Source of the DNA: a virus
Virus record (IMG/VR): IMGVR_UViG_3300010354_000024
Coordinates: 1 to 31,770 of that record
DNA length: 31,770 bases
Strand: one strand, 5' to 3'
In this document: positions 3,056-10,136 of the stretch, piece after piece
Layout of the letters: the number at the start of each line of letters is the position of its first letter
Numbering within the stretch: position 1 is the first letter of the stretch
Made by a program: the position numbers and the translations under genes
The notes under the pieces: model-generated
What the model saw: the letters and a program-made list of their open reading frames with translations, nothing else
Told to the model about the DNA's origin: nothing
Databases searched by the model: none

Positions 3056-3155
3056 AAACAAAAACAGCCCCGTAAGGAGCTGCAATTTGTAACGGCATCA
3101 GTCAGTCCGTTTGATAATTTTTGTTTACATTTTAGAAGGATGTGTTTAACGACTG
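3056..3155 (-). ncRNA. Candidate minus-strand small RNA 1 with its own terminator
   Basis: On the minus strand TATATTTG (complement of 3161-3168) precedes about 100 nt that end in hairpin CAGCTCC-TTAC-GGGGCTG (complement of 3082-3065) followed by TTTTTGTTT. Read leftward, all seven stem positions pair (one U-G wobble); read rightward there is a C-A mismatch and no T-tract, so the leftward RNA is favoured. The body holds an AACGG...CCGTT hairpin (3091-3111) whose loop contains CUGAC. No -33 box is evident. No ORF fits. Confidence 0.4.
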
Positions 3156-5462: not shown

Positions 5463-5574
5463 ATTTATGTTGGACTACCTCTTAATTTTTGTACTGGGTG
5501 GGTTTGTTGTATTCGTATTCCTGTACCTACTAATTGATTTAATTAGAAGCTTGGTTAGATATTACAAAAAATGA
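5449..5574 (+). CDS. Short single-pass membrane peptide
   Basis: 41 residues. Residues about 8-30 are strongly hydrophobic (DYLLIFVLGGFVVFVFLYLL) and are followed by a basic tail ending RYYKK, as expected for a membrane peptide with its C-terminus in the cytoplasm. Start overlaps the gene before by 14 nt and the stop overlaps the nuclease start as ATGA. Could modify the host envelope or exclude other phages; unproven. Confidence 0.5.
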   Translation: MTILKFMLDYLLIFVLGGFVVFVFLYLLIDLIRSLVRYYKK

Positions 5575-5912
5575 GGCATTTAGAATCTTCCCTCCAAATT
5601 CATTGTGTTAAGTGGTTTAGGTACGAACACCCTGATATGATATTGTTTTCAATTCCTAATGGTGGTAAGCGTTCAGCAATAACCGCTAAAATAATGAAAG
5701 CGGAGGGGCAGATGTCAGGTGTAGCCGATTTATTCCTAATGTACCCACATCACGGATTCCATGGATTATGGATTGAGATGAAAACGGATAAGGGCAAACA
5801 ATCGGATAACCAAAAGTATTTCCAACAGAAAGCGGAGTTCTTTGGGTATAAATACACCATTGCACATTCGTTTGATGAATTTATGAAAATAGTAACAGAA
5901 TATTTAAAATGA
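5571..5912 (+). CDS. VRR-NUC-type nuclease
   Basis: 113 residues, the usual length for stand-alone phage VRR-NUC proteins. The PD-(D/E)xK core is visible: GVADLFL with Asp53, WIEMKT with Glu69 and Lys71, and Gln81 in the following helix. N-terminal FSIPNGGKRS is typical of the family. It probably cuts branched or flap DNA during replication or repair. ATGA overlaps on both sides couple it to the membrane peptide and to the methyltransferase. Confidence 0.85.
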   Translation: MRHLESSLQIHCVKWFRYEHPDMILFSIPNGGKRSAITAKIMKAEGQMSGVADLFLMYPHHGFHGLWIEMKTDKGKQSDNQKYFQQKAEFFGYKYTIAHSFDEFMKIVTEYLK

Positions 5913-6160
5913 TACATTTTTCACTATTTAGTGGCTTGGGAGGCTTCGATCTTGCCGCAGAATGGATGGGATGGAAGAATTATGTGAGTTGTGAAATAAA
6001 TCCGTTTGCCAATAAAATATTAGAATATCATTTTCCTGATGCCTATCATCATACAGATATAACAACTTTAACTTATGACACAATTAACACTGAACTTACA
6101 AGGAGATTTGGAAGCCACTGGAGGAACGATGATATCATCCTCACAGGTGGCTTCCCGTAA
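5909..6160 (+). CDS. DNA C5-cytosine methyltransferase, N-terminal part (stops in motif IV)
   Basis: 83 residues with SAM-binding motif I (FSGLGGFDLA, residues 7-16) and a CEINPFA acidic motif. The frame ends at GGFP, the first half of catalytic motif IV (GGFPCQPFS), because TAA-CTA follows. After these two codons the same frame continues at once with CQPFSLAGKRKG. The enzyme would transfer methyl from SAM to cytosine C5 and protect phage DNA. As written, this fragment lacks the catalytic Cys and should be inactive unless the stop is read through. Start is ATGA-coupled to the nuclease. Confidence 0.85.
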   Translation: MIHFSLFSGLGGFDLAAEWMGWKNYVSCEINPFANKILEYHFPDAYHHTDITTLTYDTINTELTRRFGSHWRNDDIILTGGFP

Positions 6161-6773
6161 CTATGCCAACCATTCAGCCTTGCAGGAAAAAGAAAAGGAA
6201 CTGAAGACGAACGCTACTTGTGGGGCGAAATGCTACGAGCAATACAAGAAATTAAACCGAAATATGTCATTGCAGAAAATGTCTTTGGTATCACAAATAT
6301 TGATGGCGGATTGGTATTCGAGCAGGTGTGCCTTGACTTGGAAGCTCAAGGGTACGAAGTTCAACCGTTTATTATTCCAGCTTGTGCCAAAAATGCACCG
6401 CACCGAAGAGATAGAGTTTGGTTTATTGCCTACACCGTCAGTGATGCAAATGGACTACGAACCAAAGGATGGATGGATATGGATGGGAAATTATTGGAAA
6501 GACGAAAAAGGCAAAAAAAGGCAAACGGATTTAACAACAACTGTGAAAATGGGGATGCTACCGACTCCAACTTGCCAGGATGCGAAACAAAAAGAGAACA
6601 GTCCAAGCCAACAACACAAAATAAACGAATTGAGTATAGCAGTAGCAGGTGGTACAACTTCCCATCTCAATCCCCGATTTGTAGCGGAGATGATGGGCTT
6701 CCCACCAAATTGGACGGAATTACCTTTTCAAAGTGGAGACAAGAATCAATCAAAGGATATGGAAACGCCATAG
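6075..6773 (+). CDS. ORF overprinted on the methyltransferase in the +1 frame
   Basis: 232 codons open in a frame different from the methyltransferase; ATG 6129 is an alternative start. The product is not random: WYSSRCALTWKLKGTKFNR, EIEFGLLPTP, a second MLPTP repeat, and FVAEMMGFPPNWTELPFQ are motifs I recall from proteins encoded with phage cytosine methyltransferases. The same bases read in the methyltransferase frame give canonical C5-MTase motifs, so both frames look conserved. The ORF stays open across the stop-bearing insertion at 6158-6163, reading it as Asn-Tyr. Function unknown; a partner or specificity subunit is a guess. Confidence 0.6.
   Translation: MTQLTLNLQGDLEATGGTMISSSQVASRNYANHSALQEKEKELKTNATCGAKCYEQYKKLNRNMSLQKMSLVSQILMADWYSSRCALTWKLKGTKFNRLLFQLVPKMHRTEEIEFGLLPTPSVMQMDYEPKDGWIWMGNYWKDEKGKKRQTDLTTTVKMGMLPTPTCQDAKQKENSPSQQHKINELSIAVAGGTTSHLNPRFVAEMMGFPPNWTELPFQSGDKNQSKDMETP
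6158..6163 (+). other. Two-codon stop-bearing insertion in methyltransferase motif IV
   Basis: Between codons for GGFP (6146-6157) and CQPF (6164-6175) lie TAA CTA. Removing these six bases (or the equivalent AACTAT, 6159-6164) restores the invariant GGFPCQPFS exactly. It is in frame, so it is either a small insertion, a site of stop read-through, or an error in the sequence. Confidence 0.85.
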
Positions 6774-6835
6774 TACCACAAGTGGCGTATGAAATATTCA
6801 AAGTTTTACAACACATTGATGATTCATTAAAATAA
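6218..6835 (+). CDS. DNA C5-cytosine methyltransferase, C-terminal part
   Basis: Same frame as 5909-6160; the frame is open from 6161, and the first usable start after the stop is TTG 6218, which would lose CQPF. Contains AENVFGI (motif VI, ENV), HRRDRVWFIA (motif VIII region) and C-terminal GYGNAIVPQVAYEIFK (motif X region). A low-complexity Lys/Asn-rich segment (about residues 85-145 of this part) is where target recognition would sit. With the N-terminal part the full protein would be about 308 residues. It is overlapped almost fully by the ORF at 6075-6773. Confidence 0.85.
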   Translation: MWGEMLRAIQEIKPKYVIAENVFGITNIDGGLVFEQVCLDLEAQGYEVQPFIIPACAKNAPHRRDRVWFIAYTVSDANGLRTKGWMDMDGKLLERRKRQKKANGFNNNCENGDATDSNLPGCETKREQSKPTTQNKRIEYSSSRWYNFPSQSPICSGDDGLPTKLDGITFSKWRQESIKGYGNAIVPQVAYEIFKVLQHIDDSLK

Positions 6836-9134: not shown

Positions 9135-10136
9135 ATGAGTAAAGTATTAGTCATAATGGATGGCATGAGTGCCGTTACCTACCATCGTTTAGCAATGCCA
9201 TGGGCAATGATTCGTTTCCATCAACAATTGGATGTAACATTTGCAATCACCCGACCTGAAATTGAGGCGGTAAAGGTTCAGGATTACGATGCTATTGTAA
9301 TATCACGTTACCTGCGATTCAATACCAAAATAATAACAGATTGTAAAAAGTACGGTGTCAAATTCATTGTTGATAATGATGACCATTGGATTATTCCAAA
9401 ACATAACCCTGCCTATTCCTCATACAAGAAAAAGGCAAAGGATGGGGTAATATCATGCATAAAGGCAGCCGATGCAGTAATTGTTACCACGCCCCAATTG
9501 GCAGAGAAAACAAAAGAAATCAACCCAAATGTTTACATCGCACACAACGCATTGGATTTGGAAGAACCACAATGGAACGCCAAGGCAGCCCATCCCTTTA
9601 CAATTGGCTATGTTACAGGCTCATCCCACCTATATGATGTGAAGTTATTAGAGAATCAGTTATCCAATGTACTGAAACGCAATCAATGTAATTTCTTATT
9701 GGCTGGGTATGCACCAATGGAACGAATATCGCAGATGATGGAATACTATATCACGGGTGAAAAGGAACGCCCGACATGGTTCTATATCGGTGAGGGTGTC
9801 AATGTGTTGAATTATGGTAAGTATTACGCATTTATGGATGCCGCTATTGCACCATTAGAAAAGACATCATTCAATAAGTATAAATCCGAATTGAAGATTA
9901 TTGAAGCTGCGGCATATAGATTACCCATTTTTGTAAGTGCCGTTGAACCATACACCAACCATAGAAAAAACAAAGGTGTGATTTTTGTAGAGAATAACGA
10001 TTGGTCGATACTGGATAAATATTTAGCCGATAAAGCGTTATTAAAGGAGTTAGGTGAAGCCAATTACCAGTATTGTAAAGAACACCACAATTTATACCAA
10101 GTAAATGAACAACGAATTAAAGCGGTTACAGATTGA
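9135..10136 (+). CDS. GT-B fold glycosyltransferase (GT4-like)
   Basis: 333 residues. Starts VLVIMDGMSAVTYHRLAMPW, with a Rossmann-like N-domain and VDNDDHW and AHNALDL motifs. The C-domain has the GT4-type acidic helix KSELKIIEAAAYRLPIFVS (about residues 250-268) that contacts the nucleotide-sugar. It transfers a sugar from an activated donor. In phages the acceptor may be modified phage DNA, a virion protein or host surface glycan; which one cannot be told here. Its end overlaps the next glycosyltransferase gene by 32 nt. Confidence 0.75.
   Translation: MSKVLVIMDGMSAVTYHRLAMPWAMIRFHQQLDVTFAITRPEIEAVKVQDYDAIVISRYLRFNTKIITDCKKYGVKFIVDNDDHWIIPKHNPAYSSYKKKAKDGVISCIKAADAVIVTTPQLAEKTKEINPNVYIAHNALDLEEPQWNAKAAHPFTIGYVTGSSHLYDVKLLENQLSNVLKRNQCNFLLAGYAPMERISQMMEYYITGEKERPTWFYIGEGVNVLNYGKYYAFMDAAIAPLEKTSFNKYKSELKIIEAAAYRLPIFVSAVEPYTNHRKNKGVIFVENNDWSILDKYLADKALLKELGEANYQYCKEHHNLYQVNEQRIKAVTD

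Follow-up and report, generated by a model that had tools for sequence, protein, structure and literature searches.

A dual-coding phage cytosine methyltransferase gene with a conserved stop codon in its catalytic motif and a probable stop-hop element

The closest described precedent for the arrangement reported here is T4 gene 60, in which a stop codon follows the take-off codon, the landing codon matches the take-off codon, and two stem-loops, one 5' and one at the take-off site, refold behind the ribosome and promote forward sliding (PMC11194080). Synthetic stop-hops, in which matched codons flank the stop and 9 nt are translated as one amino acid, work in E. coli, and a 2016 review wrote of in-frame stop hopping that 'no occurences are known' (PMC5009743). 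Later reports of a natural stop-hop may exist, and our literature search was thin on subscription journals and bioRxiv. For a second protein read out of frame within a phage methylase gene, the nearest likeness is the ShiLan element, a hidden HNH endonuclease (PMC11855218). ShiLan is a mobile insertion with a homing nuclease, whereas in the gene described below it is the enzyme's own conserved domain that is dual-coding. Overlapping genes and bypassing are known kinds of phenomena; what is new is the proposed natural in-frame stop-hop in a widespread dual-coding enzyme.

The stretch of DNA analyzed, called the window from here on, comprises 31,770 nucleotides (positions 1 to 31,770 of the IMG/VR virus record IMGVR_UViG_3300010354_000024). 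It is a tailed-phage contig, with terminase, portal and tape measure genes. A C5-cytosine methyltransferase (PF00145, PHROG_363) occupies positions 5909 to 6835 of the + strand, on which the overprinted frame and the putative stop-hop elements described below also lie. Its 5' part (5909-6160) contains motifs I-III up to GGFP and then an in-frame TAA, and matches PF00145 at 4.9e-07 (5909-6157) and PHROG_363 at 1.3e-17; its 3' part (6164-6835) runs from the catalytic Cys through CQPFS, ENV, HRRDRVWFIA and GYGNAIVPQ and matches the same two families at 6.2e-27 (6161-6832) and 3.7e-40, respectively. The Pfam profile and the ordered motifs I, IV (PCQ), VI (ENV), VIII and X (GN) identify frame 0, as far as sequence can tell, as a phage C5-cytosine methyltransferase. 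A VRR-NUC nuclease ORF (5571-5912) overlaps the methyltransferase start by 4 bases, and a VRR-NUC gene likewise lies near the methyltransferase in Bacteroides phage BKO1-TP3. A glycosyltransferase-like ORF at 9135-10136 (PHROG_7162, 6.4e-44) is a possible DNA-modification or moron gene.

Overprinted on the methyltransferase in the +1 frame is a protein of 232 aa, referred to here as alt (6075-6773), which was defined by ORF call, profile match and selection tests. In the profile searches alt matched PHROG_1008 at 1.4e-25, and Pfam yielded nothing for it above the cut-off; a Paenibacillus homologue matched PHROG_1008 at 8.2e-74. Alt would be a small conserved protein with its own initiation, overlying the enzyme from motif IV to near the C-terminus. 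The original prediction had described a 232-codon frame at these positions that carries motifs of its own over those of the methyltransferase; this frame is present, reads as quoted and is +1 to the methyltransferase, and both sets of motifs were found. The prediction had also held that both frames read as recognizable protein. Each of them does match profiles, but the methyltransferase frame is broken by the TAA at 6158-6160, which sits exactly between GGFP and CQPFS and had been overlooked.

In the window, the motif IV proline codon CCG (6155-6157), the putative take-off codon, is followed by the TAA, the putative programmed stop, then by the YYN codon CTA (6161-6163), the putative landing codon, and by the catalytic Cys codon TGC (6164-6166), at which the CQPFS of motif IV would resume; at the DNA level motif IV is thus split by TAA CTA. 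The same CCG-TAA-CTA-TGC recurs in further contigs, where alt reads across it and the methyltransferase frame goes on beyond it. Scans that permitted TAA, TAG or TGA followed by any codon (NNN) found CCN-stop-YYN-TGY in 50 distinct in-frame phage methyltransferases, the window included, with TAA in 29, TGA in 14 and TAG in 7. The landing codon was CTN in 23, CCN in 20, TCN in 7 and no other. When the second codon was fixed as CCN and the first was left free, 61 places were found; all 20 in-frame methyltransferases among them, which include some near-duplicates, have a stop (TAA 9, TAG 3, TGA 8) and none a sense codon, and the other 41 places are chance matches in which the open codon was anything.

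The codons on both sides of the stop follow rules of their own. The third base of the take-off codon is G in 24, T in 17, A in 9 and C in none of the stop genes, as against C in 66, T in 44, A in 28 and G in 7 of the stop-free genes, so that CCC is found in 0/50 versus 66/145 (p ~3e-11). Landing codons end in A in 33/50 genes, and a G-ending landing codon accompanies a G-ending take-off codon (9/24 versus 3/26, p 0.047). All 50 fit the tRNA-Pro anticodon, with GG at the two strict positions, by Watson-Crick pairs or with one G.U. Constraint from alt could explain the first pyrimidine after the stop (Asn, Ser or Asp in alt), not obviously the second, at which the alt residue varies (Y, H, C, R, L, F, P). 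Several sister genes have different stops or landing codons from each other and still always keep a stop plus YYN. A quick tree, built from the 29 stop genes that are complete enough and with long branches that leave some placements unsure, implies that the stop was gained or lost 5 times, with supported branches forcing at least 4 of these events. We consider it very probable that the conserved stop is functional and that full-length enzyme is made across it. The window contains no suppressor tRNA. A search for prophages with the stop in 396 genomes of Bacteroidetes, the phylum of locus L167, gave 1 pattern match, which is not a methyltransferase, and a DNA-level search for the form seen in the window found nothing close among cultured phages.

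Directly 5' of the take-off codon lies a predicted RNA stem-loop (GGAAGCCAC...GUGGCUUCC, 6110-6155), identified by folding and covariation, whose 3' arm in the window extends to the first base of the take-off codon. The window fold has -25.2 kcal/mol and a z of -3.9, with 0/200 shuffles as good. Among all genes compared, z (from mononucleotide shuffles) was < -2 in 41/49 stop genes versus 2/145 stop-free genes, with medians of -4.9 versus +0.5, and a perfect 9-nt 5' complement of the 3' arm was present in 33/49 versus 0/145. Because 8/49 stop genes (L282, L296, L302, L304, L309, L318, L323 and L325) have no fold with z < -2, the stem is not universal. The covariation score was 0.314 versus 0.145 when shuffled, a value that 0/500 shuffles reached. 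Pairing is seen in 95% of the cells of 20 distinct arm pairs, a percentage favored by the selection of genes with a good stem, and two-sided changes number 21 versus 7.1 in shuffles. More weight as evidence falls on the two-sided changes at stem pairs 5 and 8. Two further points count against a bypass element: no nascent-peptide motif beyond the normal methyltransferase conservation was evident by eye, and no conserved structure was seen downstream of the stop (z -0.1 in the window). In several relatives, as in the window (6129-6131), the apical part of the stem-loop contains an alt-frame ATG, which could link the hairpin to alt initiation.

Taken together, the computed results are dual coding with selection acting on each frame, a stop that is conserved and followed by YYN, a biased choice of take-off codon and a stem whose arms covary. 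The mechanism that we find likely on their basis is a programmed 6-nt stop-hop, not readthrough. The ribosome would decode up to the motif IV proline (CCN) and then have the stop codon in its A site. The peptidyl-tRNA-Pro would detach, refolding of the 5' stem-loop against the ribosome would favor a forward move of 6 nt, and the tRNA would re-pair on the YYN codon past the stop. Translation would resume at the catalytic Cys and give a normal GGFP-CQPFS, and ribosomes that do not hop would end as a truncated N-terminal fragment. Such a hop should limit or regulate the output of enzyme and leave alt, in the other frame, unaffected. Three features expected of bypassing are found: a stop follows the take-off codon in 20/20 genes with a CCN landing codon, the landing codon can pair with the take-off tRNA in 50/50, and a potentially stimulatory mRNA structure is present in most members, not all. 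The arrangement shares with T4 gene 60 the stop right after the take-off codon, the same-tRNA landing codon and the 5' stem-loop. It differs in that the predicted hop covers 6 nt, not 50, stays in frame, has no known nascent-peptide signal, and lies in the catalytic motif of an enzyme in ~50 divergent phage genes. The synthetic stop-hops are artificial, whereas the case proposed for the window would be natural.

If instead a near-cognate tRNA were to read the stop, the enzyme would carry two extra residues (X plus Leu, Pro or Ser) between the motif IV Pro and the Cys. Such readthrough would fit a stop that lies in frame between two conserved coding parts, and the C that follows the stop in 43/50 genes. 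All three stops are used, however, and if two extra residues were tolerated, sense insertions would be expected, of which 0/20 were seen. Readthrough also leaves unexplained the YYN rule, the avoidance of CCC and a 5' stem that ends at the take-off codon. Known readthrough stimulators sit 3' of the stop. We therefore regard readthrough as unlikely.

The preference for C after the stop, together with the position of alt in the +1 frame, could also point to an RF2-like +1 frameshift, in which the stop would send ribosomes into alt and fuse the N-terminus of the methyltransferase to it; the prfB site likewise has a stop followed by C. Against this, CCC would suit a +1 slip before U better than any other codon and is used in 0/50 genes, the conservation of the methyltransferase after the stop would be unexplained, and alt has its own upstream start in most genes, which makes this reading very improbable.

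We give equally little credence to the possibility that the methyltransferase is decaying as a pseudogene in the lineage of the window, with only alt still made. The frame is interrupted in the window, and in loci L112, L175 and L212 the methyltransferase is broken over an intact alt. Decay would not be expected to place the stop at one exact position in ~50 distinct genes of several clades, nor to leave the enzyme constrained where alt does not overlap it and where synonymous sites are near saturation: the alt-free N-region of the stop genes has a median dN/dS of 0.13, with dS commonly 1-2, and the short alt-free C-tail past the alt stop a median of 0.39, the methyltransferase being conserved to its end.

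The conservation of both halves would also suit a split enzyme, made as an N-terminal piece of 83 residues and a C-terminal piece with its own initiation, as in the known two-subunit C5 methyltransferases. That reading is more doubtful still: no usable start lies ahead of the catalytic Cys, in-frame starts in the window begin only past it, with TTG at 6218, the landing codons CTN, CCN and TCN are non-starts with the possible exception of CTG, and the stem-loop and the YYN rule would have no explanation.

Alt is found well beyond the window. A search with alt retrieved 484 related viral stretches. In the first 82 loci compared, alt was in the +1 phase in 82/82, with both frames open in the overlap except for the motif IV stop. 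A scan of bacterial genomes gave 80 further loci, to which 8 distant phages were added, and the phase was the same in all 88, apart from a few copies with a local frameshift or interruption. The 80 genome loci belong to Bacillota, Bacteroidota, Pseudomonadota, Acidobacteriota, Actinomycetota, Chlorobiota and Myxococcota, and divergent same-phase forms occur in annotated phages of E. coli, Salmonella, Pseudomonas, Vibrio, Mycobacterium and cyanobacteria. The E. coli phages Bas70, Bas76 and Bas77 were among the matches. Among the loci examined, no stand-alone copy of alt outside a methyltransferase was found. In L112 and L175 the methyltransferase frame is interrupted elsewhere (stops near 3139 and 2833, respectively) with alt intact; L212, also with alt intact, comes from the set of loci picked by methyltransferase alone. 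In L113 and L136 a frame switch has brought pieces of alt and the methyltransferase C-terminus into a single open segment, suggesting that frameshifts from one frame to the other occurred recently.

To separate selection on alt from constraint imposed by the enzyme, codons were permuted with the methyltransferase protein and codon usage kept fixed (29 loci, 500 permutations). The real alt frames are stop-free across the 29 loci, against averages of 1.3-7.0 stops in permutations; in the window the expected mean was 5.5 and 0/500 shuffles were stop-free. Against an HMM from independent loci, the window alt scored 330 bits and its shuffles 122 +/- 16. An HMM from Bacteroidota-type viral loci only gave 92-152 bits for Firmicutes and related loci, with permutation means of 16-59, and the window alt scored 161 bits against an HMM from the other group (permutation mean 59); with the cross-group HMM, real alt stood at z 6-10 above shuffles in most loci. 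The HMM from the other group ranked 29/29 loci above all 500 permutations and the Bacteroidota-type one 27/29 (exceptions L184 and L185). In a 72-codon block of 188 genes, methyltransferase-silent changes were 0.57-0.66 times as frequent when they altered alt as when they were silent in it (SN/SS), and methyltransferase-altering changes 0.45-0.49 times as frequent when they also altered alt (NN/NS); NS/SS of the methyltransferase was ~0.2. These ratios are summary values without formal errors, from sequence pairs that share ancestry. A candidate alt start with a Shine-Dalgarno-like stretch of >=4 nt upstream was found in 25/27 loci, mostly Firmicutes and proteobacterial, a supportive count, several candidate starts per locus being permitted. 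Other C5 methyltransferases of the same host genomes have 9 (L335) and 20 (L343) stops in this frame, and neither these nor L351, which is open over 88 codons, gave a meaningful score to the alt HMM.

By shuffling, HMM scores and substitution classes, both frames are under purifying selection, and the synonymous shuffles show that the second frame is under selection of its own. The suggestion of a long-lived dual-coding gene was therefore well founded: the phase is the same in all loci and several phyla, and alt is conserved beyond the level that the methyltransferase imposes. Of the two outcomes named beforehand as counting against it, neither occurred. The second frame is not regularly broken by stops, being open in 187/188 genes over the 72-codon block and in 80/80 loci picked by methyltransferase alone, mostly close relatives of the window; and its conservation exceeds that of a mere shadow of the enzyme. 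The locus is, on these sequence comparisons, almost certainly a dual-coding gene. That the +1 frame is a mis-annotated by-product of methyltransferase conservation and codon bias is scarcely credible, for although the methyltransferase motifs force some +1 likeness (shuffles still reach 16-59 bits in Firmicutes-type and related loci), the real frames lie far above shuffles, are stop-free, possess starts preceded by ribosome-binding sites and show constraint at positions where the methyltransferase is synonymous, and other C5 methyltransferases of the same genomes do not match the alt family in this frame.

Existing annotation has registered the overlap in several ways. The window alt belongs to a family whose members in K1G, Shelly and others are annotated over the methyltransferase: an 'Mte8-like protein' lies over a 'C-specific methylase' in K1G, the record of Shelly gp56 (SHELLY_56) carries the remark 'g55 internal gene', and Paenibacillus phages often have 'DNA methyltransferase (x2)'. 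In Porphyromonas phage018a_AFR5B1 (L395 1420-2448) alt alone is annotated and the intact methyltransferase over it is missing. PHROG_1008 and many GenBank records label alt 'DNA methyltransferase'; alt has no recognizable methyltransferase domain, and the label is wrong for this frame, probably as a result of annotation transfer. In the literature searched, no paper treats the overlap as dual coding and 'Mte8' occurs as a label only. Annotators have noticed the overlap, and its interpretation is absent from the papers searched. Gene-finding programs that disallow overlaps, or that break a gene at a stop, misread the locus in several ways, as these records show.

Alt has several conserved features: a segment at the N-terminus, a W-S-x4-L-x-W stretch after which a beta-hairpin is predicted, LPTPxxxD units repeated in numbers that vary between relatives, and LNPx[FW]Vx3MGFPx2WT. 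One locus, L189, was read in the methyltransferase frame in alignment A3; it was left out of alignments A4 and A6, and the structural work did not draw on A3. In the C-terminal signature, LNPRFVAEMMGFPPNWT in the window (6666-6716, from the alignment), LNP, V, M, G, P and WT are near-invariant from Bacteroidota-type to Firmicutes and proteobacterial phages. The number of LPTPxxxD units (window 6420-6570, L041, L100) varies opposite the variable target-recognition part of the methyltransferase, and the two proteins may diversify together there. Alt matched 0 families of the PADLOC profiles of known anti-phage defence, NCBIfam was empty, Pfam had no match above the cut-off for the true alt rows either, and the PDB sequence profile gave no match. 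Two AlphaFold models were of low confidence (pLDDT 60.5 and 56.8, pTM 0.26 and 0.23), with only the beta-hairpin and two helices standing out, and the first had no match among PDB folds at E <= 0.001.

The roles put forward in the original prediction, a partner, a specificity factor or an anti-restriction protein, are candidates, and the one lead to a function comes from the N-terminus. QLxLF is the consensus for binding to the sliding clamp (PMC4549789), and many alt proteins resemble clamp-binding proteins in a short N-terminal Q[LM][TS]LF. Q[LM][TSD]L[FW] occurs in 40/194 alt N-termini versus 0.7-3.7 expected from synonymous shuffles, at a place that precedes the motif IV overlap, and a looser QLxLF-type pattern in 27/72 genome loci versus 2.7 expected. 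The motif belongs to part of the family only and is rare in stop-free viral relatives (2/69). The window has, at alt residues 3-8 (6081-6098), the hexapeptide-like QLTLNL, where homologues commonly have QLTLF, and not the canonical QLxLF. Alt would probably act together with the methyltransferase, and the clamp-type motif, from which binding is predicted, suggests that it would tether modification to the replication fork. By analogy with the recruitment of DNMT1 by PCNA, alt may recruit the enzyme to the replication clamp, a possibility that we put at perhaps one chance in three.

Our overall reading, which we hold tentatively and at somewhat less than even strength, is that dual coding in phage C5 methyltransferase genes is ancient and spans several bacterial phyla, that the overprinted partner ties modification to the replication clamp, and that a subset of these genes sets the ratio of enzyme to partner by the first natural in-frame stop-hop. 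The minimal bypass element would consist of a 5' stem-loop, CCN, any stop and YYN. If this is true, natural in-frame stop-hopping, listed as unknown by a major recoding review, exists, and the element that causes it is small, portable and easily mutated, with ~50 natural variants through which the rules for take-off, landing and the push from the mRNA could be tested. A very widespread family of phage enzymes would then be a deep dual-coding gene with its second product mis-annotated as a methyltransferase, and alt would offer a testable link to the replication clamp.
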